Below, in pieces: positions 31,614 through 43,734 of a stretch of 64,000 nt of DNA. The translations under genes were made by a program, and so were the position numbers. The notes under the pieces are model-generated. The model saw only the letters and a program-made list of their open reading frames with translations, was not told the DNA's origin and searched no databases. The stretch is from positions 1 through 64,000 of the forward strand of contig JANLFO010000012.1 of assembly GCA_024653205.1 (NCBI GenBank), read 5' to 3'. Every line of letters begins with the position of its first letter. Positions within the stretch are counted from its first letter, which is position 1. Origin of the DNA: Clostridia bacterium. Its GTDB lineage: Bacteria; Bacillota; DSM-521; Neomoorellales; SLTJ01.

Positions 31614-31867
31614 CAGATGACAGGTTCGCGCCGGGAAGACTTCCTTCCTGCCGGAGCGGGAGCGCAGAGAGATCCGGTGCTTGACGAACGCCGGGAATAA
31701 AACGGCAGCAAAGCCTTAGAATTACTTGCTCTGCTGCCGCCCGGTGGTGCCAGATGCGAGCGGAGTATACGGGGGTGTACGCCAGCGCGGTTGCCGTTGC
31801 CGGTATGGCTGTTTAAGGAAGGATTCTTGCCCTCAAGGCAGAAGATATTAGTTGCCAATTGAACACA
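31614..31867. other. Gene-free divergent region between priA and the cobalamin riboswitch
   Basis: About 250 bp with no credible gene. It must hold the promoters of priA (minus) and of the riboswitch-led operon (plus), but no consensus pair is clear. An 8-bp inverted repeat (CGGCAGCA at 31702-31709 and TGCTGCCG at 31732-31739) with a 22-base loop is present; it lacks a T-run and is not a terminator. Confidence 0.4.
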
Positions 31868-32060
31868 GTTCGGGGACGGGTGACTCTGGGGTGACTCCCG
31901 GAGGAGAGGGAAGCCGGTGCAAATCCGGCGCGGTCCCGCCACTGTGAGGGGGATCGGCCCTGCATAAGGCCACTGGGCACAGAGCCGGGAAGGCGCAGGG
32001 ACGAGATGAACCCGAGCCAGGAAACCTGCCCGTCCCGGACACCGTTGATCTACGCGTGAT
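31868..32060 (+). promoter_or_regulatory. Cobalamin (AdoCbl-type) riboswitch
   Basis: The conserved parts appear in order: GGGAAGCCGGTGCAAATCC (about 31908-31926), CGCGGTCCCGCCACTGT (to 31944), and the B12 box GCCAGGAAACCTGCC (32016-32030). It lies about 190 bp upstream of the first gene of the B12-uptake operon and about 45 bp before an intrinsic terminator, so it most likely turns transcription off when cobalamin is plentiful. Confidence 0.95.
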
Positions 32061-32105
32061 AGGGAGGTGTCTCGGGTGCTCGGCCCAGGAGTACGGGCAA
32101 GGGAC

Positions 32106-32137
32106 GCCCCGGTCCGCGCGGGATCGGGGCTTTTCGT
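32106..32137 (+). terminator. Intrinsic terminator, expression platform of the riboswitch
   Basis: GCCCCGGTCC pairs with GGATCGGGGC-type sequence (10 bp including one G-U) across a short G+C loop and is followed by TTTTCGTTT. It lies between the B12 box and the first gene, as in transcription-attenuating cobalamin riboswitches. Confidence 0.82.
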
Positions 32138-32250
32138 TTGCCGGTTTGAGTGAGTCTTGACCGATCGGTTCGGCCGGCAGCCGACCTGCGAGGTACTGCG
32201 AGGCCGCCCACTTACTTGCCAAAAAGCAACTTCGAGGAGGGAAGCTGACC

Positions 32251-34446
32251 TTGTCACGAATGAGCAGTTCGTCGAAATATGCGGTGGCCCTGGTAGCCTT
32301 GTTAATACTATTGCTCGGGTGCTTGGTGCCGCAGGCCGCGCACGCGCAGGCGTCGCTTTCCATTGCTCCTGCTTCAGCGGAAGTGAAACAGGATGAAACA
32401 GTTCAACTGAGAGCCTTTGTAGTCGGTGAGGGTTTGAACGGCCCAGAAGTCACCGAAGCCGCCGAGTGGTCGGTCGGTGACGCCAGCGTGGCCAGCGTGG
32501 TCTACGGCCTGGTCACCGGCCTCAGCCCCGGCCGCACGGTGGTTCGCGCCACCTATGGGGGGCTTACCGGCTCGGCAGAGGTGACGGTGACTGCCGATAG
32601 CGGTGGCCAAAACGAGAATGAGCCCACTACCTGCCGGGTAGGGGTAGCGGTGGTGGGCCGGGACGGAAAATTGCTCTTCGGCCCCGGGTACGTCTGGCTC
32701 TCAGAGGCCGACCGATGGGGCCTCACTCCCCTCGGTGCCCTAGACGCTACCGGCCTCGACTATGATTACCTGGAGTACACGGGCTGGGGCGCCTTCGTAA
32801 CCCAGATAGCCGGCCAGGCCAACGAGAGCTACAGCGGCTGGTGCTACGCCGTTAACGGCTCCTCGCCCGTGGTGGCCGCCGACCAGTATCAACTGAGCAG
32901 CGGTGACCGGGTTGTATGGTACTACAATATAGACTTCACCACGCCGGTGCCCGATTGGAACAAACTGGTGGGATCGGGCTCCACCTCTACCGGCACCTCG
33001 GCGTCGCCAGCCGCGGTCTCGGAAGCCGTGGAGCAGGTCCTGGCCGGTCTTAAGGGCGGTACCACCTTTCCAGGCGAGGCCCTATCCCGCCTGCAGGCAA
33101 TCATGGCAGATCTGAAGACCAACGAGCCAGGTGCCGAGCTCAAGGCCAAACTGGCAGAAACCGTTCAGCTGCTCGCCCAGGCTCTGGCGTCGCCGCCGGC
33201 TGCGGCCTTTTCCGCCCAAACCGAAGCTAACACTCTAACGCTGTACCTGGACGCCGAGGCCTTTAGCACCTACCTGGCTACCCTCTCGGCTGCGGCGGAA
33301 GCAGGAGAAAAACTCCGGGCACTGGGAGTGGCGGAGGCGGAAGTCCTTAGCCTGACCGAACTCACCCTCAGCGTCCCGGCGGGTGCGGACCAGGTTGGGC
33401 GGATAAGCGTGTTCATGCCGCTGCCCGTGGCCCGGGAAATCGGGGGGGCCGGCCTGGCCCTGGTCCTGAGCTGCCCTGACGCCACTGTGGCCATCCCGGC
33501 CGGTGCTCTGGAAGACGTGGTCAAGTCTGCGGTGGAGGGGGAGGGAGTAGAAATATCGCTGGAAGAAAAGGACGCTAGTTCCCTCGCCTTATTCGCCGGC
33601 GCCCGCCCGCTCCTGCCTCGGAGTTTCTACCTTAGCCTGGGCACCATCACTCCTGCCGGCGAGCGGCACCGGCCCGGGGCTTTCGCCGAGCCGCTGGCCA
33701 TCACCCTGCTCCTGCCGGAAGAAGTTGGCCTCGCCAGCCTTGACCCCGCGCGCCTGGCCGGATACTGCCGAAACGAGCGGGGAGGCTGGGCCTTCCTGGG
33801 CGGCAAACTGGATCCGGATGCCCGAACCTTCCGCTGCGCGGTGCCACAGCCCGGCCTCGTTTTGCTGGCCGAGTACCGCCTCCCCTTCCGGGACTTGGGA
33901 CAACACCAGGCAAGAGCAGAGGTGGAAGAGTTGGCCCGGCGGCTGGTAGTGAGGGGTGCGAGCGCCGAACGTTTCGCACCAGAGGCAGCAATCACCCGCG
34001 CCCAGTTCGTGGCTCTCCTGACAAGAGCCTTCAGCCTTCCGGAGGAGACGGCCCCGGCGCCCGTTTTTGCCGACCTGCCCCAGGGCCACTGGGCCCGGGC
34101 GGCGGCAGAGGCCGCCTACCGGGCGGGCCTGGTGCAGGGCGACGGCCGAGGAGGTTTTGCGCCCGAGCGGACCCTCACCCGGGAGGAAATGGCGGTCATG
34201 CTGGCCCGGGTCATAGGCCGCTATGGTCCGGCGGGGGCGGAGGCGCCGGCGACGGACGAGGTGCTGGCAGGATACACGGACGCAGGTATGGTCTCCGCCT
34301 GGGCCAAGGAAGCAGTAGCCCTCGCGGTTGGGAGCGGGCTGCTGAAGGGCCGATCCGCCGCAGAGCTTGCGCCCCAGGGGCAGAGCACCCGGGCGGAGGC
34401 GGCTAAGGCCGTTTACGACCTCCTTCGGGCTCTCGGACGGATCTGA
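32251..34446 (+). CDS. Exported SLH-anchored protein with BIG2 and DUF4430 (transcobalamin beta-like) domains
   Basis: 731 aa, TTG start at 32251, 9 bases after GAGGAGGG. Residues 1-33 are a signal peptide (cleavage near AHA-QA). A bacterial Ig-like BIG2 domain follows (~36-115), then DUF4430 (~128-236; GRDGKLLFGP..WGLTPLGALDATG..SGWCYAVNG..GDRVVWYY), the fold of the C-terminal cobalamin-capping domain of transcobalamin/intrinsic factor. Residues ~240-550 are an unrecognised, partly helical then beta-rich region. From ~555 to the end are three SLH repeats for cell-wall attachment. It is the first gene after the cobalamin riboswitch. Inference: the outermost B12-capture protein of the uptake system. 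Confidence 0.85.
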   Translation: MSRMSSSSKYAVALVALLILLLGCLVPQAAHAQASLSIAPASAEVKQDETVQLRAFVVGEGLNGPEVTEAAEWSVGDASVASVVYGLVTGLSPGRTVVRATYGGLTGSAEVTVTADSGGQNENEPTTCRVGVAVVGRDGKLLFGPGYVWLSEADRWGLTPLGALDATGLDYDYLEYTGWGAFVTQIAGQANESYSGWCYAVNGSSPVVAADQYQLSSGDRVVWYYNIDFTTPVPDWNKLVGSGSTSTGTSASPAAVSEAVEQVLAGLKGGTTFPGEALSRLQAIMADLKTNEPGAELKAKLAETVQLLAQALASPPAAAFSAQTEANTLTLYLDAEAFSTYLATLSAAAEAGEKLRALGVAEAEVLSLTELTLSVPAGADQVGRISVFMPLPVAREIGGAGLALVLSCPDATVAIPAGALEDVVKSAVEGEGVEISLEEKDASSLALFAGARPLLPRSFYLSLGTITPAGERHRPGAFAEPLAITLLLPEEVGLASLDPARLAGYCRNERGGWAFLGGKLDPDARTFRCAVPQPGLVLLAEYRLPFRDLGQHQARAEVEELARRLVVRGASAERFAPEAAITRAQFVALLTRAFSLPEETAPAPVFADLPQGHWARAAAEAAYRAGLVQGDGRGGFAPERTLTREEMAVMLARVIGRYGPAGAEAPATDEVLAGYTDAGMVSAWAKEAVALAVGSGLLKGRSAAELAPQGQSTRAEAAKAVYDLLRALGRI

Positions 34447-34527
34447 TCCTCGATATCGGCGGGAGGGCGGTCCCGGTCGGTTCGTGGCTGTCTGCCCTCC
34501 CGCCTCCATACAGGTGGGGATGGAACC

Positions 34528-35280
34528 ATGAGCCTAATGAGAAGCAGGCGCCGTGTAAAGCTTTGGGCGTCGGTGTTGGGCCTGCTGGCGGCCGGCGCCT
34601 GGCTATGGCTGGCGGTAAGCCCGTCTCTGCCCGCTACCGCCCCCTCGAGCGTACAGGCGGAAAACCCTACGGCGGCACAGCCGGGTGAGCCTGCCCCGGT
34701 TGCCCCAGCCGTCCGGTCCTCGCCGGCCGAGATAGAAGCCGCCCAAACTTCCGAGCCGGCCGGGCCAGGGGAAACGCAAGACCAAGCCGCACCGAGGCCA
34801 GAGCCCGGAACGGCCGCTCCGCAGAGTGATCGAGAGGATCGAGAGAAGGAACCAACCGTTTCTGGCCCCCGTGCCGCCGAGAGCCCTGCAGCCGCCGCTG
34901 TCCAGCGAGCCAAAACGCCGGGATCGAACGAAAGCGTGACCGCGGCCGTGGCGGTGGTGGGCGGGCAGGGCGAGCTGCTGTTCGGGCCCGCCGAGGTGAA
35001 GATCGACCCCGATAACCCTTGGGGCGCCACCGCCCTAGGCGCACTGGAGGCCACCGGCCTGCCCTACCAGATGTCTGCCCGCTTCCCGGAGCTGGTGGAA
35101 ACCATCGCCGGGCAGAGTAACCGTGGAGCTTCAGGCTGGATGTACCAGGTAAACGGAGAGGTACCCATGCTCTCGGCGGCAAGGCACCCGGTGCGGCACG
35201 GGGACCGCATCATATGGTGGTACAGCCGGGACCTGGCACAACCCCCGCCCGCCTGGGAGGCGCTGACGGACGACAACTGA
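34528..35280 (+). CDS. Membrane-anchored DUF4430 protein (transcobalamin beta-domain-like)
   Basis: 250 aa. An N-terminal basic stretch and membrane segment (~11-31) are followed by a ~100-residue Pro/Ala/Glu-rich linker and a DUF4430 domain (~137-243). That domain aligns closely with the one in the preceding protein: GELLFGP, WGATALGALEATG, ASGWMYQVNG, GDRIIWWYSRD. It should sit outside the cytoplasmic membrane on a flexible tether. Under riboswitch control and followed by the toroid protein and an ECF transporter, it is inferred to pass cobalamin from the wall protein to the importer. Confidence 0.85.
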   Translation: MSLMRSRRRVKLWASVLGLLAAGAWLWLAVSPSLPATAPSSVQAENPTAAQPGEPAPVAPAVRSSPAEIEAAQTSEPAGPGETQDQAAPRPEPGTAAPQSDREDREKEPTVSGPRAAESPAAAAVQRAKTPGSNESVTAAVAVVGGQGELLFGPAEVKIDPDNPWGATALGALEATGLPYQMSARFPELVETIAGQSNRGASGWMYQVNGEVPMLSAARHPVRHGDRIIWWYSRDLAQPPPAWEALTDDN

Positions 35281-35293
35281 AGGGGAGGCGTCG

Positions 35294-36658
35294 ATGTTGA
35301 AACGGATACTTGGTGCCTTGTTGCTGCTGGTGCTGCTGACTTATTTGGCGCCTTCCGCCCGGGCCGATTCAGCGGTCAACCGGGCGCTGGCGCAGGCAAG
35401 AGATTATCTGCTGGAAACGGAAAGAAACCGGGGAGCGCTTTCTCCTTGGAGCTACGTGGCGCTGGCCGTCTGCGGCGAGCCCCTGAGCGCGGCCAGGGTA
35501 GGCCGGACGCTGCAATCTCTGGAAGGCCAGGAGACCACCACCCGCGCACTGTTGATCCTCACTCTTCTAGCAGCGGGGCAAAACCCTTCTGACTACCAGG
35601 GCAGAAACCTGGTGGCCGAACTGGCCGCCGCCCAGCTCCCTTCGGGCAAGTTTGCCGACCACCTACTGGAAGGGGGCGAGAGGCTGGTGAACGCGCACCT
35701 CTGGGCGATACTGGCCCTCAAGGCTGCCGGAGAGCCCCTGCCCCGGCCCGAGGCGGCCCGCAGGTGGCTGATCGAGCGCCAGCACCCGGACGGTTCTTTC
35801 CACTGGGACGCCCTCAACTCCGATACGGCGGACGTGGACACCACCGGCATGGCGCTCATGGCCCTGGCTGCCCTGGGAGAAACTCCCGAGAGCCCGGCGG
35901 TTCAAAGGGCGGTAGAGTACCTGAAGACCGCGCAGCTTCCCGACGGCGCCTTTTCCTCCTGGGGAGCGGAGAACGCCGAGTCCTGCAGCGCCGTCATCTT
36001 GGGATTGGTGGCACTAGGCCTGGACCCGCAGGGTGCGGACTTCCGCAAGCCGGAAGGCGACCCGGTCACCGCCCTCCTGCGCTTTCAGCTGCCCGGCGGC
36101 GCCTTTGAGCACGTAAGAGGCGGCGGCGCCAACGAGATGGCCACCCAGCAGGCCCTCCTGGCCCTGTCCGCCATGCGCCAGCCGGAGGCCCTCCGGAGCT
36201 GGCTCCTGGGCACTCCCGTCTCGGCGCCTGTCTCCTCTCCCACTCCTTGCTCACAAGGGTTTCAGGTCCGGTTCCGGTTGGGCCGGAACCACTACACAAT
36301 GATACGGGAAGGAAGAGAAGAGAGTCACCAATTCGAGCCCGGCGCCGCGCCCTTCGTACAGGACGGGCGGACTCTGGTCCCGGTGCGCTTCCTGGCCCTC
36401 GCCCTGGGTGTGCCGGAAGAGGGTATCCGGTTTGAAGCCGCGCCTCGGCAGGTAACCCTGATCAAAGGGCACACCCGCCTGACGCTGGTCATTGGAAGGC
36501 CGCTCCTATTGGTAAACGGACAGCTCCAGGCCCTGGACGTGGCGCCGGTGGTGCGAAACGGCCGCACCTACCTTCCCGCCCGCTACGTGGCCGAAGGCCT
36601 GGGCTGCCGTGTAACCTGGGAGCCCTCGAGGGGCGAAATAGTGATCACCGCCGAGTGA
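35294..36658 (+). CDS. Exported alpha/alpha-toroid protein (transcobalamin alpha-like) with copper-amine-oxidase-N-like domain
   Basis: 454 aa. Signal peptide 1-24 (cleavage after ARA). Residues ~26-305 are prenyltransferase/squalene-cyclase-type repeats: QLPSGKFADH, QHPDGSFHW, QLPDGAFSSW, QLPGGAFEHV, each followed by a helix such as TTGMALMALAAL. This alpha6/alpha6 toroid is the fold of the N-terminal domain of transcobalamin and intrinsic factor. The C-terminal ~125 residues are a Cu-amine-oxidase-N/stalk-like domain (DGRTLVPVRFLALALGV..NGRTYLPARYVAEGLG), common in surface proteins of Firmicutes. Inference: it forms the other half of a cobalamin-binding pair with the DUF4430 proteins. Confidence 0.85.
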   Translation: MLKRILGALLLLVLLTYLAPSARADSAVNRALAQARDYLLETERNRGALSPWSYVALAVCGEPLSAARVGRTLQSLEGQETTTRALLILTLLAAGQNPSDYQGRNLVAELAAAQLPSGKFADHLLEGGERLVNAHLWAILALKAAGEPLPRPEAARRWLIERQHPDGSFHWDALNSDTADVDTTGMALMALAALGETPESPAVQRAVEYLKTAQLPDGAFSSWGAENAESCSAVILGLVALGLDPQGADFRKPEGDPVTALLRFQLPGGAFEHVRGGGANEMATQQALLALSAMRQPEALRSWLLGTPVSAPVSSPTPCSQGFQVRFRLGRNHYTMIREGREESHQFEPGAAPFVQDGRTLVPVRFLALALGVPEEGIRFEAAPRQVTLIKGHTRLTLVIGRPLLLVNGQLQALDVAPVVRNGRTYLPARYVAEGLGCRVTWEPSRGEIVITAE

Positions 36659-36672
36659 GGGAGGCCCCGATC

Positions 36673-37578
36673 TTGTTCGAGCGCCTTTTCTACGAGCCCA
36701 AAGACGTGCTGCTGCAGCGCCTGCACACCGCGACTCTCCTTGCCTACTGCGGGAGCCTGGCGGGTCTGGCCCTGGTTTTCTCCCACCCGCTTTACCTGCT
36801 GGCGGTGCTGGCCGCCGGCGCCCTGGGGGTAACCGCCGCCCAGGCAGTCGCCAAGTGGCGGTTTTACCTCCGCTTAGGGCTGTGGACCGCCGGGCTAATG
36901 CTCTTGATCAATGCCGCGGCCTCGCCGGGCGGTGCGACGGTCATCCTCCGTGCCGGACCGGCGAGGGTCTCGTTGGAAGCCCTGGTCTACGGGGCGATCG
37001 TGGGAATGAGGCTTCTGGGGGTACTCACCGCCTTCTGCGTAGCCAGCACCACCCTGCACCCCGACCGGCTCTTGGGCATCTTTTCGCGCTGGGCCTACCG
37101 TTCCTCGCTGGTGCTGTCCCTTGCCACCCGCTCCCTGCCCAACGTCGCCTGCGAATTGGTGCGTGCACGGGAGGCCCTCCAGGTGCGGGGAGTGAACCTG
37201 GAGGGAGGGAGCCTTCGAAGTCGGCTGGATAAGGCCGGTTGGCTGCTGGACGTGCTGCTGGTTTCCTGCTTGGAAGGCGCGCTAGAAACCGCCGAGGCCC
37301 TCCAGGCCCGGGGGCTGGGGTGCGGCCCCCGCAGTCACTTCCGGCGGGAAGTTCTCCGGCCCCGGGACGCCTCGGTGCTGGCCGGCGTGGGGCTGAGCCT
37401 CACCCTTTCCTCCTACGCCCTGCTCACCGGGGCCGCCGGTTACGCCTGTTACCCGCGACTGGCGCCCCTAGACCACAATGACTTCTGGCTGCCGATGGCG
37501 GTGCTTGCCGGACTCTCCCTGCCGGCCATTCTGAGTTGGGGGTGGCAGTATTGGCCCTATTTGCGATCGAAGATCTGA
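36673..37578 (+). CDS. ECF transporter T component (EcfT/CbiQ family)
   Basis: 301 aa from TTG at 36673, 8 bases after GAGGGAGG; GTG at 36655 is possible but has no ribosome site. Six or so membrane segments and the two coupling motifs of EcfT, AREALQVRGV and ETAEALQARGL (Ala-Arg-Gly type), which bind the ATPase grooves. It couples ATP hydrolysis to the S component. It overlaps the ATPase gene by about 28 bp. Confidence 0.88.
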   Translation: MFERLFYEPKDVLLQRLHTATLLAYCGSLAGLALVFSHPLYLLAVLAAGALGVTAAQAVAKWRFYLRLGLWTAGLMLLINAAASPGGATVILRAGPARVSLEALVYGAIVGMRLLGVLTAFCVASTTLHPDRLLGIFSRWAYRSSLVLSLATRSLPNVACELVRAREALQVRGVNLEGGSLRSRLDKAGWLLDVLLVSCLEGALETAEALQARGLGCGPRSHFRREVLRPRDASVLAGVGLSLTLSSYALLTGAAGYACYPRLAPLDHNDFWLPMAVLAGLSLPAILSWGWQYWPYLRSKI

Positions 37579-39335
37579 GCTACTGGTATCCGCAGACCGA
37601 TCGACCCGCCCTGGCCGGCATCAGTCTGACCATTGAAGAGGGGGAAATGGTGGTGCTGGCCGGGGGATCGGGATCGGGCAAGTCCACCCTGGCGCGCTTG
37701 TTGGCCGGGCTGTCTCCACGGTTTTACGGCGGCCGGCAGCAAGGAAGGGTGCTTTTCCGGGGGAAAGACCTGCGGGCGCTCGATCCCCGTTACCTCGCCG
37801 GGCGGGTAGGCCTGGTGTTTCAGGACCCGGAAAAGCAGCTGGTCATGACCTCGGTGGAAGCTGAAATCGTATTCGGGCCGGAGAACCTGGGGCTGCCCCC
37901 GTCGGAGATCGGGCGGCGGCTGGCCGAGGTAACCGGCTTCCTGGGACTGACCCACCTCAAGGGGGAATTCACCGGCAACCTGTCGGGTGGCCAAAAGCAG
38001 AAGCTGGCCCTGGCGGCGGTGCTGGCCATGCAGCCGGAGGTGCTGATTCTGGACGAGCCCACCTCCCAACTCGACCCGGTGGCGGCGGAGGAGTTCCTGC
38101 ACTTGGTAGAACGCCTCAATCGGGAAATGGGCTGCACGGTGGTGCTGGTGGAGCACCGGCTGGAGCGATGCCTGCACCTGGCCGACCGGCTGGTAGTGCT
38201 GGAGGGTGGGAAGATCGTGGCCTGCGCCCCGCCGGCAGATCTGGCCCGCCGGCAGGATGACCGCCTTCTTCCCTTCCTGCCGCCGGTAACCCGGCTGTTC
38301 GCCGCCCTGGGAGCCGCCCGGATACCGCTTACGGTAAAGGAGGCCCGGCGGGAGTTGCCGGCTCTCCTGTCCCGGCGACCCGAACCCGGTTCCGTTCCGG
38401 ACGATAACCCCTTTCCATCGCCCGGTGCGACCGGTATAGCCGTTCAACGCTACGCCGTCAGCTGCGATTCAGGCGGGGGCGAGGACGCCGCCTCCCCTTC
38501 CTCTTTCCCGGACCGCCAGCCGCCGGGCCTGTCTCCGGTTCTGGCCGAACTCCACGGCGTCTGGTTCGCCTACCCCAACGGCCACGAGGCGCTCAAGGAC
38601 GTGGGTCTGGTGATCCGTGGCGGCGAGCTGACGGCCCTTCTGGGGGAGAACGCCGCCGGCAAGACCACCCTCCTGAAGCTGATCGCCGGGCTGTTGCGAC
38701 CGGCACGAGGAAAGGTGCGGACAACGGGGGAAGGCATTGGTCTGGCCGCCGGCGTGGCCTACCTTTCCCAGGACCCTAACGACTATCTATTTCGGGACAC
38801 GGTAGAGGAAGAGCTCGCCTTTACCCTGTCGGCTCTGGGCCGGACGGACAACGGCGCCGTAGCCGCCACCTTGGACAGGTTGGGCTTGGCCTCCCTGCGC
38901 CACCGTTACCCCCGGGAACTCAGCGCCGGCGAGCGCCAGCGCGTGGCTCTGGCCCTGCTGCTGGTAGCCGGGCCACGGCTCTTGCTGTTGGACGAGCCCA
39001 CGCGGGGAATGGACGCGTGCCTGAAGGAGAGGCTCGGTGCCTGGCTGCGGGAGATAGTGGCGGAAGGAAGGGGGGTGGTACTGGTCACCCACGATACCGA
39101 GTTTGCCGCCCGCTACGCCGATCGGGTGGTAATGATGAGCGACGGTGCGGTGGTGGCCGACGGCCCGGCGGCGGAAGTATTGGCCTCCTCCCTATTCTAC
39201 TGCCCGCAAATAGGGCGGCTTTTCCGTGGGGAGAAGACCGCGGTCTTGACCGTAGAGGAAGCGTTACGGTGGTTTGGGAGAGGAGAGAGGGAATGCATAT
39301 GCGGCACCACCGGCGTCAGCTCCCAAACTACCTAG
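37551..39335 (+). CDS. ECF transporter ATPase, fused A-A' (two nucleotide-binding domains)
   Basis: 594 aa from TTG at 37551 (GGTGG 5 bases upstream); TTG at 37536 is an alternative. Two ABC domains in one chain: NBD1 (~5-245) with GGSGSGKST, QDPEKQLVM, LSGGQKQKLA, ILDEPTSQLD; NBD2 (~340-560) with GENAAGKTT, LSAGERQRVA, LLDEPTRGMD. They are joined by a ~90-residue linker. The fusion replaces the usual separate EcfA and EcfA' proteins. It is cytoplasmic, works with the adjacent T and S components, and is dedicated to this operon. Confidence 0.93.
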   Translation: MALFAIEDLSYWYPQTDRPALAGISLTIEEGEMVVLAGGSGSGKSTLARLLAGLSPRFYGGRQQGRVLFRGKDLRALDPRYLAGRVGLVFQDPEKQLVMTSVEAEIVFGPENLGLPPSEIGRRLAEVTGFLGLTHLKGEFTGNLSGGQKQKLALAAVLAMQPEVLILDEPTSQLDPVAAEEFLHLVERLNREMGCTVVLVEHRLERCLHLADRLVVLEGGKIVACAPPADLARRQDDRLLPFLPPVTRLFAALGAARIPLTVKEARRELPALLSRRPEPGSVPDDNPFPSPGATGIAVQRYAVSCDSGGGEDAASPSSFPDRQPPGLSPVLAELHGVWFAYPNGHEALKDVGLVIRGGELTALLGENAAGKTTLLKLIAGLLRPARGKVRTTGEGIGLAAGVAYLSQDPNDYLFRDTVEEELAFTLSALGRTDNGAVAATLDRLGLASLRHRYPRELSAGERQRVALALLLVAGPRLLLLDEPTRGMDACLKERLGAWLREIVAEGRGVVLVTHDTEFAARYADRVVMMSDGAVVADGPAAEVLASSLFYCPQIGRLFRGEKTAVLTVEEALRWFGRGERECICGTTGVSSQTT

Positions 39336-40003
39336 CGCTTCCGGCCGTAGCCGGCGGCCTGCTCCTCCTGGCTTTTACTTCCATGGACTGGGGCCTGGCG
39401 GGCTTTCTCCTGGCCACGGCGGCACCGGTCCTGGCCGGATGGATCTGGGAGGCCAGGGCGCTTTCCGCGGGGGAACTGAGCCTTGCGGCCACGTTGGGAA
39501 CACTCGCTGCCCTCAGCCGCGTGCCCTTCGCCGCCCTGCCCAGCGTGCAGCCCACGACCTTCCTGGTGATTTGCGCCGGTCTGGTCTTCGGCCCTTCGAC
39601 CGGCTTCATGGTGGGCTCCACCGCAGCCCTGGTCTCCAACTTCTTCCTGGGCCACGGTCCCTGGACGCCCTTTCAGATGCTGGCCTGGGGTTTGGCCGGC
39701 GCCAGCGCCGGCTGGCTGGCGCGTCTGCAACCCAACCCAAGCCGGACGGGGCTCGCCGTCTTCGGCTTGGCATGGGGCTATGTGTTCGGACTGCTGATGA
39801 ATCTCTGGTTTTGGGCCGCCTTCCTACCTGCTACGGGGCTCTCCGGCTTTCTCGCCGCCAGCGCCGCCAGTTTTCCCTTCGATACCGCCCATGCCCTTAG
39901 CAATCTGGGCCTATTCCTGATCGCAGGACCGCGGGTACTCCGCCACCTGTGCCGGTTCCGTAACCGCCTACGGATCAGTTACGGCCCACCGGGGTATCTG
40001 TAA
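39293..40003 (+). CDS. ECF transporter substrate-binding S component, CbrT-like
   Basis: 236 aa from ATG at 39293 (GAGAGAGGGA just upstream); it overlaps the ATPase gene by 43 bp. Six hydrophobic segments. The central motif FGPSTGFMVGSTAALVSNFFLGHGPWTPFQMLAWGLAG (stretch beginning near residue 100) is characteristic of the cobalamin-type S components (CbrT). With the riboswitch upstream, cobalamin or a corrinoid precursor is the likely substrate. It is the last gene of the operon. Confidence 0.85.
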   Translation: MHMRHHRRQLPNYLALPAVAGGLLLLAFTSMDWGLAGFLLATAAPVLAGWIWEARALSAGELSLAATLGTLAALSRVPFAALPSVQPTTFLVICAGLVFGPSTGFMVGSTAALVSNFFLGHGPWTPFQMLAWGLAGASAGWLARLQPNPSRTGLAVFGLAWGYVFGLLMNLWFWAAFLPATGLSGFLAASAASFPFDTAHALSNLGLFLIAGPRVLRHLCRFRNRLRISYGPPGYL

Positions 40004-40888: not shown

Positions 40889-41463
40889 CTAGCCGGCGAT
40901 CCGGCCCAGGATTACCAAGAGGCGCCTCAGCATGACCACAGCCTCGGCCCGGGTGGTGTTCTCCTTAGGGGCAAATCGGTTGCCTTCCCGGCCTCTAACG
41001 ATGCTCGCCTCCGCGGCCTGTGCCCCGGCCTCCCGCACCCACGGACCGATGGCGGCCTTGTCCGCGAACCGGGCCAGTACCGCCTCAGGGTCGGCCACCA
41101 CGAGGGGCTTGCCAGCGTTGGCAAGAGCCCTCACCACCATCGCGGCGATCTCCTCGCGGGTCATGCTGGCCTGGGGCCTGAAGCTCCCGTCGGGATAGCT
41201 GCCCACCAAGCCTGCGGCCCTAGCGGCCTCTACCGCGCCAAAGTACGAGGCGTCGGGGCTCATGTCCTTGAAGCTCGCCGCGGCGGGTTTGGTCTCAGCG
41301 ATGCCCAGGGTCCTGATCAGGAGGGCAGTGAACTCCGCCCGAGTAACCTGGCCATTGCGGTTGAAGCGATCGGGAGCCACACCGACGGCAATGCCCATTC
41401 CCGCCATTACCTCGATGTCCTAGGCAATCAAGCAATCAACAAGACAACCGCCTTTTTTGCCAT
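40889..41463 (-). pseudogene. Truncated SLH-domain surface protein gene
   Basis: The open part (40889-41407, up to 172 aa) holds nearly three SLH repeats: VTRAEFTALLIRTLGI, SMTREEIAAMVVRALA, TTRAEAVVMLRRLLVI. Its reading frame continues upstream as DIEV directly into a TAG. Slightly further upstream an ATG at 41463 with GGGAGGAGGA begins MAKKAVVLLIA, the start of a signal peptide, and then stops. The simplest reading is a surface-layer gene that lost its middle by deletion, leaving the signal-peptide start and the SLH end in broken frame. Confidence 0.7.
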
Positions 41464-42288: not shown

Positions 42289-43552
42289 ATGTTAAACCAT
42301 CTCACCCGAGGCGGGCGCCTTGGCTGGCTTTGCCAGTGCAAGAGTGAGGCCAGGGCTGCTGTCGCGGAGATGGTCCTGGGATTTACCCACGGTTGGAAGC
42401 CGGCTTTCCGGTTCTGTCGAAAATGCGGGCGGTTTTACCACGGCGAGTGCTGCGATACGTATCTCCCGGAGGCCACCAGCGAACGGGAGGCTAGGAAACT
42501 GCTGGATGTGTTCAGCGCCGAAGTGCAAAAAGGGCTTTACATCAAGCCGTCCAAGCTAACGCTCAAAGACTTTGCGGAAAGGTGGGTCCGGGAGTACGTC
42601 GAGGTGGAGCTGGCACCCAAGACCGCCCACCGCTATAAGGAATGCCTGGCCCGCGCCGTGGAAGCTATGGGCCACCTCAAGCTGGAACAGGTAAAGCCCC
42701 TGCACCTGGTCGAGTTCTATAACAGCCTCCGTAAGGAGGGAGCCCGCAGGGATGGCAGGCCGGGTAAACTGTCAGAAGCGTCGGTTCTTTACCACCACCG
42801 GGTAATCAGCAGCCTCTTCAGCCACGCGGTTAAGTGGGGGCTTCTGTCAATGAACCCGGCAAGCAAGGTCGATCCCCCCAAGACGAAGCGAAAGGAGCCC
42901 GAAGCTTATGACCATGAGCAGACGGCCCGGCTTCTCGCCACCTTGGAACCCCTGAAATATAAGGTTCTGGTAGTCCTTGCCTTGGCTACCGGCCTTCGCC
43001 GAGGGGAGCTCTTAGGCTTGGAATGGCATGATGTGGATTTTGAGAACTGCACCATAGAGGTCCGGCAGGCCAGCCAGTACCTGCCCGAGAGGGGCGTCTT
43101 CACCAAGGAGCCCAAAACCGAAACCTCAAGGCGCATCATATCCGTACCGTCGTCGGTAATGGAGCTTCTGAAGCAGTACAGGGCCCATCAGGCCGAGGAA
43201 AGGCTTAAAGTGGGTGATCTGTGGGAGAAATCGGGCAGGCTCTTCACCACCTGGAACGGCCGGCCCATGCATCCGGACACCGCTACCAGTTGGTTTGCCG
43301 AATTCCTGGAGCGGCACGGCCTGCCGCGGATGAAGTTCCAGGCGATCCAGGCTCTTCGCCATACCTCTGTCTGCCACGCTGCTCATTGCCGAAGGAATAT
43401 CGCTTAAGAACGTGAGCCGCCGCCTGGGCCATGCGGATACCAGGACCACGGACATGTTCTACACCCGGGCTCTAGAGAGCGTGGACCGGAAGGCGGCGGA
43501 GGTGCTGGACGAAATCATCTCCGGAGGCAAGAGGCGGCAGGCCAAGACGTGA
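42289..43552 (+). pseudogene. Tyrosine-recombinase integrase, frameshifted
   Basis: The first 372 codons (to 43407) give a phage-type integrase with SAM-like N-domain (LTLKDFAERWVREYV) and catalytic domain (ATGLRRGELLGLEW with the first Arg; ALRHTS with the second Arg). Near 43370 the frame shifts; in another frame the rest continues as ISLKNVSRRLGHADTRTTD and the tyrosine segment MFYTRAL, to a TGA at 43552. The His of the usual HALRHT is Gln. The first ~60 residues (CRKC..ECC) are unlike normal integrase N-termini. It is probably inactive. It ends about 110 bp from tRNA-Thr, the likely target. Confidence 0.82.
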
Positions 43553-43612
43553 GTTTTATTTTGGCCTCGTTTGCTCCCAATTTGCTCCCAAAAAGCGGGC
43601 TGTACGGCATTA

Positions 43613-43668
43613 TCCAGAAAAAAGAAACGCCGCAAATCCTTGCGGCGTCTAGATTTTCCTGGAGCTGA
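43613..43668. repeat. Right imperfect direct repeat (possible attR) overlapping tRNA-Thr 3' end
   Basis: Partner of the repeat at 40111-40165. It contains the tRNA terminator and the last few bases of the tRNA gene (GGAGC = GCTCC on the coding strand). Location of the integrase just to its left, with the element lying on the 3' side of the tRNA, is the usual arrangement for tyrosine-recombinase integration at a tRNA. Confidence 0.5.
43615..43648 (-). terminator. Terminator of tRNA-Thr
   Basis: On the minus strand ACGCCGCAA pairs with TTGCGGCGT across a four-base loop, followed by TTCTTTTTTC. It begins 12 bp after the tRNA 3' end. Confidence 0.85.
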
Positions 43669-43734
43669 CGGAGGGATTCGAACCCTCGGCCTGCGCATTA
43701 CGAGTGCGCTGCTCTACCACTGAGCTACGTCAGC
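43660..43734 (-). tRNA. tRNA-Thr (anticodon CGT)
   Basis: 75 nt with encoded CCA. Acceptor GCTGACG pairs with CGTCAGC; D-arm GCTC..GAGC; anticodon stem-loop CGCAC-TCGTAAT-GCG type with anticodon CGT reading ACG; T-arm GAGGGTTCGAATCCCTC. All arms fold. Its own promoter lies upstream and a terminator downstream. Confidence 0.96.

Follow-up and report, generated by a model that had tools for sequence, protein, structure and literature searches.

Bacterial relatives of the animal vitamin B12 carriers have been predicted before. Burroughs et al. 2007 (PMC1796856) defined the SLBB superfamily, and passages of that paper describe transcobalamin-like proteins of bacteria that are joined to toroids in Desulfotomaculum or to Ig domains in Moorella, report operons with CbiO, CbiQ, and a second SLBB protein in Gram-positives, predict B12 scavenging as their function, note that bacteria with such systems are usually without B12 biosynthesis, and propose a transfer from low-GC Gram-positives to animals, i.e., a bacterial origin of the human B12 carriers. 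On the import side, CbrT is a proven S component of an energy-coupling factor (ECF) transporter that transports cobalamin and cobinamide (PMC5997447). In this study, we analyzed a stretch of 64,000 nucleotides from a Clostridia bacterium (contig JANLFO010000012.1, positions 1 to 64,000; hereafter the window), which revealed a cobalamin riboswitch, a terminator, and six genes in tight spacing on the + strand (31861–40003). This locus is a split variant of the predicted, widespread bacterial transcobalamin system. We consider it quite probable that the operon encodes a cobalamin-repressed system for the capture and import of corrinoids, in which an exported toroid and DUF4430 domains would act as the halves of a bacterial transcobalamin relaying to a CbrT-type S component. 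In the initial annotation of the window, such a system had appeared unanticipated; as B12 scavenging by toroids and SLBB (DUF4430) domains was already predicted in the passages cited above, its novelty is weaker than held there, and new here are the linkage to riboswitch and CbrT, the counts across genomes, the split, and the presence in an apparent B12 maker.

All elements listed in the initial annotation were present on the + strand in tight spacing, and a chance arrangement is excluded since the same operon occurs in relatives. The riboswitch aptamer was of full length (31861–32047; RF00174, 115.6 bits at a gathering score of 31.5 bits, E-value of 2.8e-28, model positions 1–189), starting 7 nt earlier than position 31868 given before, and was recovered again by a separately built covariance model. 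It is followed by an intrinsic terminator (32106–32130), a hairpin of 10 bp with the T-rich tail TTTTCGTTTG and a fold z-score of −3.0, which by its sequence and place before the first gene is likely the expression platform of the riboswitch. The first gene (32251–34446) encodes an SLH-anchored wall protein of 731 aa with a signal peptide, a Big_2 domain (about 32353–32589), a DUF4430 domain (about 32635–32970, 1e-13), and three C-terminal SLH domains. The second (34528–35280) encodes a membrane-tethered protein of 250 aa, in which an N-terminal membrane anchor and a long linker precede another DUF4430 domain (35023–35226, 3e-12). Both DUF4430 domains passed the curated cut-off of PF14478 (51.6 and 47.4 bits versus 23.8). 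The third gene (35294–36658) encodes a protein of 454 aa with a signal peptide and an alpha/alpha toroid (about 35366–36223; SQHop_cyclase_C 5e-11, Prenyltrans 1e-7). The initial annotation had recognized this exported toroid correctly and overlooked a Cu_amine_oxidN1 domain at its C-terminus (about 36329–36646, residues 346–451, 2e-26). A weak match of this protein to the SCO2321 family of Streptomyces (NCBIfam, 9e-16) stayed below the cut-off.

The remaining three genes complete the set of an ECF transporter, namely EcfT of the CbiQ family as transmembrane component (36655–37578, PF02361 2.4e-13), a fused EcfA-EcfA' ATPase of 599 aa with two ABC domains (37536–39335; TIGR04520 1.8e-102 and TIGR04521 2e-100, two stretches each), and a CbrT-like S component of 236 aa (39293–40003). 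The only significant PDB match of the latter was 6fnp_A, CbrT of Lactobacillus delbrueckii (7.4e-11), followed by 4hzu_S at 0.22. Its most likely start is the ATG at 39293 and not position 39017 of the listed open reading frame (39017–40003), judging by conservation, by where the ATPase gene ends, and by a GGAGAG ahead of this ATG. CbiM and CbiN were not found in the operon.

Extracellular capture followed by ATP-driven import is also known from BtuB/BtuF and from BtuG/BtuH of Bacteroides; in contrast to these analogous systems, the one of the window has no outer membrane, TonB, BtuF, or BtuCD, and the folds are unrelated. No soluble binding protein is known for an ECF importer. With animal transcobalamin, intrinsic factor, and haptocorrin, the window proteins share the same two domain types, but here the halves reside on separate proteins, come with anchors of the SLH or membrane type and with a Cu_amine_oxidN1 domain, and are combined with an ECF importer instead of receptor endocytosis. 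The systems in the passages of Burroughs et al. 2007 are similar in that an exported DUF4430/SLBB protein, often fused to a toroid, is encoded beside a CbiO-like ATPase, a CbiQ-like protein, and a second SLBB protein, whereas a link to riboswitches, an S component identified as CbrT, and a split toroid do not appear in those passages (PMC1796856). Compared to ECF-CbrT of L. delbrueckii (PMC5997447; PDB 6fnp), the window shows the same S family, EcfT, and two ATPase domains, but it encodes ECF module and S component in one operon and its ATPases are fused; for the L. delbrueckii cluster nrdJ-cbrS-cbrT-pduO, no extracellular capture proteins are named (PMC5997447).

Strong evidence for corrinoid uptake came from a survey of 22 genomes of the class and 249 genomes of the phylum. 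DUF4430 was found in 17 of the 22 class genomes, and the S component occurred in 16 of these but in none of the five without DUF4430; in the lone exception, the locus lies on a short contig ending just past EcfT. At the phylum level, 75 genomes harbored both, five DUF4430 only, five the S component only, and 164 neither, a pattern that covers dozens of families. The corresponding p-values (2e-4 for the class and 6e-51 for the phylum) overstate independence, since genomes share ancestry. In addition, 80 DUF4430 loci from outside the class were scanned for riboswitches, for which a covariance model was trained on 14 examples from the own genome and its class, using a cut-off of E ≤ 1e-3, which lets in a few weak matches. 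A cobalamin riboswitch was detected at 59 of these loci, with 83 elements in total where the density in the class predicts about 2.5. It lay upstream on the same strand in 56 of 57 testable loci, with a median distance of 226 nt to the first DUF4430 gene, and 45 of the 80 loci combined riboswitch, DUF4430, toroid, EcfT, and S component. The link of DUF4430/toroid pairs to cobalamin riboswitches or ECF transporters in other genomes, on which the initial annotation had staked its proposal, was thus overwhelming, and its assignment of the operon to corrinoid uptake is supported by the riboswitch, the CbrT-like S component, and these counts. At five loci (L125, L126, L115, L133, and L076), two cobalamin riboswitches were located close together upstream of one operon.

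In regard to the proposal that DUF4430 and toroid are counterparts of the transcobalamin halves, structural modeling of a relative carrying both in one chain (L162, Clostridia bacterium 41_269) lent it support. The AlphaFold2 model reached a predicted local distance difference test score (pLDDT) of 90.8, and its 15 best PDB matches in Foldseek were haptocorrin, transcobalamin, and intrinsic factor (E-values of 9e-10 to 1e-7, about 440 columns, both domains), followed by prenyltransferases at 4e-5. Profiles built from sequence for DUF4430 (A2, A4), toroids (A3), and fused proteins (A5) did not retrieve any chain of the transcobalamin family from the PDB, so that it is the fold comparison that carries this link. 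Some observations weigh against the proposal. The two domains of the L162 model, which has a low-confidence linker and contains no ligand, are not placed as in transcobalamin, and due to this different relative placing the root-mean-square deviation over all columns is about 22 Å. The toroid of the window, modeled alone (mean pLDDT of 88.8, about 12 toroid helices), matched terpene cyclases first (7e-7) and transcobalamin at 6e-5; this places it in the alpha/alpha toroid superfamily, and taken alone it is a generic member that scores better with terpene cyclases than with transcobalamin. Finally, a run of genes for B12 biosynthesis is present in the genome (cobJ/cbiH, cbiG, cbiF, cbiE, and cbiD with cobU, cobT, and a cobaltochelatase-like gene), several of them near riboswitches. 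Based on this gene content, the organism is an apparent B12 maker, unlike the bacteria usually harboring such systems according to the passages in PMC1796856, and its need for B12 salvage is not obvious.

The operon was also compared with those of relatives. In most of them, the first gene encodes toroid, optional Big_2, DUF4430, and SLH in one protein, followed by genes for the membrane DUF4430 protein, in some cases a free-standing toroid, and then EcfT, EcfA-A', and the S component. Among loci with EcfT, a fused toroid-DUF4430 protein was present in 12 of 15 in the class and 45 of 56 in the phylum. The halves were found only on separate proteins in three class and eight phylum ECF loci (11 in total), counts that include some short contigs and one class case (L057) that is a broken fused gene. 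In the latter (Moorella mulderi, also L183:8258–9438), the wall-protein gene seems to be disrupted, leaving separate toroid and SLH pieces and no DUF4430, and the genes for membrane DUF4430, free toroid, and ECF components are intact. Toroid and DUF4430 were not found in one chain in the window operon, where they lie on separate proteins; they do share a chain in relatives and at a second locus of the own genome on contig C3. The wall protein of a sister genus (G020) consists of signal peptide, toroid, Big_2, and DUF4430 and is colinear with the window protein from Big_2 on (51% identity in the aligned part). A toroid profile matched the G020 protein at 1e-58 and gave no match in the window wall protein, which corresponds to the fused wall protein of relatives minus the toroid. 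Since G020 retains the toroid-Big_2-DUF4430 order and the window protein is colinear from Big_2, the wall protein of the window lineage has, by this alignment, lost its toroid, and the free toroid was kept. The split, regarded as the defining novelty in the initial annotation, is on these comparisons a recurrent variant of a fused norm.

The second locus (C3:117906–131565; L015, L016) is also headed by a cobalamin riboswitch and encodes a protein of 2114 aa with the order DUF4430-toroid-DUF4430-SLH, adjoined by a toroid-SLH protein of 544 aa. An SLH fragment of 175 aa just after the riboswitch is near-identical to the end of the 2114-aa protein, which suggests a rearranged locus. In Clostridium species (L215, L216, L217, and L218), clusters near S-component genes encode exported proteins of very large size, in which three or four toroids are combined with tandem DUF4430 domains.

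Based on these data, the system might operate as follows. At low cellular cobalamin, the riboswitch would leave the terminator untriggered and the operon would be made. The corrinoid would be held outside the membrane between the toroid and a DUF4430 (beta-grasp) domain, with SLH fixing one DUF4430 domain to the wall and the N-terminal anchor holding the other at the membrane, next to the transporter. Membrane DUF4430 and free toroid would probably form the membrane-proximal pair that delivers the corrinoid to the CbrT-type S component, through which EcfT and EcfA-A' would drive import. We infer this pairing from the adjoining genes in the operon and in relatives: the membrane DUF4430 orthologue sits directly before EcfT or toroid-EcfT, and the two genes were adjacent in every surveyed toroid-Cu_amine_oxidN1 locus in which both were seen. 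A split of this kind is physically reasonable: after cleavage of intrinsic factor, its halves IF30 and IF20 retain tight binding of cyanocobalamin and reassemble into a complex recognized by the receptor (PMC6257451). That the window encodes a true split transcobalamin, in which membrane DUF4430 and free toroid close round the corrinoid by the S component and hand it over directly, with the wall DUF4430 or a fused toroid-DUF4430 protein as outer capture layer, is a tentative reading to which we give slightly less than an even chance. If true, it would represent a two-stage corrinoid relay of Gram-positives made from parts of the animal B12 carriers, even in bacteria encoding B12 synthesis. The locus also suggests a way for a Gram-positive cell to concentrate a scarce and bulky vitamin at the wall ahead of an ECF importer.

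The alternative that survives best, itself rather unlikely, retains corrinoid uptake without a sandwich across proteins: the DUF4430 proteins would bind corrinoid alone and the toroid would serve, e.g., for wall binding or as a scaffold. The Cu_amine_oxidN1 domain of the toroid protein and the unspecific fold match of the toroid alone fit this idea, as do several genomes (L074, L078, L088, L099, L101, L102, and L114) in which a small DUF4430 protein is paired with an S component and no toroid lies nearby, mostly without a detected riboswitch. It is opposed by many independent toroid-DUF4430 fusions, by the selection of transcobalamin-family structures with the fused model, and by the 11 ECF loci that hold both halves on separate proteins only.

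A different cargo, i.e., cobalt, a B12 precursor, or a lower-axial-ligand compound instead of complete cobamides, is improbable. EcfT belongs to a cobalt (CbiQ) family, and cobalamin riboswitches control cobalt importers too. CbrT accepts cobinamide besides cobalamin (PMC5997447), and the genome apparently makes B12 itself. However, the S component matches CbrT and not CbiM, and the extracellular parts resemble B12 carriers. A cobalt importer, considered for CbiQ, was rejected on this CbrT match and the operon's lack of CbiM and CbiN.

For the toroid, an exported terpene-cyclase-like enzyme that is in the operon by happenstance would agree with its best Pfam and PDB matches, which are squalene-hopene and type II terpene cyclases. 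The class II motif DxDD is not present in the window toroid, which reads DVDT at this position, and is replaced by DxD[ST]T in 33 of 33 related toroid-Cu_amine_oxidN1 proteins. Together with the export, the riboswitch link, and homologues fused to DUF4430, this led us to reject the enzyme reading as very improbable. Least credible of all is the view that the SLH/DUF4430 proteins have a structural role in the S-layer or in adhesion and no relation to B12. In its favor, SLH, Big_2, and Cu_amine_oxidN1 are commonplace domains of the wall, and some DUF4430 genes stand alone, with neither riboswitch nor ECF genes (L105, L106, L135, and L141). We rejected this view since riboswitch linkage and the near-perfect co-occurrence with the S component strongly disfavor it.

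With the bacterial transcobalamin system as preferred reading, the locus lends itself well to a first test by experiment. Among the open-licence papers in PubMed Central, we found no experimental test of any bacterial transcobalamin relative, though one may exist outside of these. Isolates such as Moorella, Desulfofundulus, and Pelotomaculum carry operons of this kind under riboswitch control, which make capture, hand-over, and the evolutionary claim directly testable.

Some further observations were made on related elements. Contig C3 of the own genome carries another full-length cobalamin riboswitch (C3:117663–117885, L012, 100.5 bits), whose next downstream genes, a HEPN/MNT-like pair, lie on the opposite strand; it is possibly an orphan or serves the alkaline phosphatase gene at 114609–116324. 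On the same contig, a lipoprotein-like DUF4430 protein (C3:141980–143383; L016:12981–14384) is encoded beside genes for a MoxR-like and a membrane protein, and no riboswitch was found close to it, so that DUF4430 is not always linked to B12. Neighboring archaeal genes with DUF4430 and toroid domains were identified in Methanogenium (L219, L220). Downstream of the operon, the window harbors a short stand-alone SLH protein of 172 aa on the − strand (40889–41407), which may be left over from a larger wall protein, and, at 42289–43734, a phage-type integrase gene (+) adjoining a tRNA gene (43663–43734, −), as found at the border of an integrated element.

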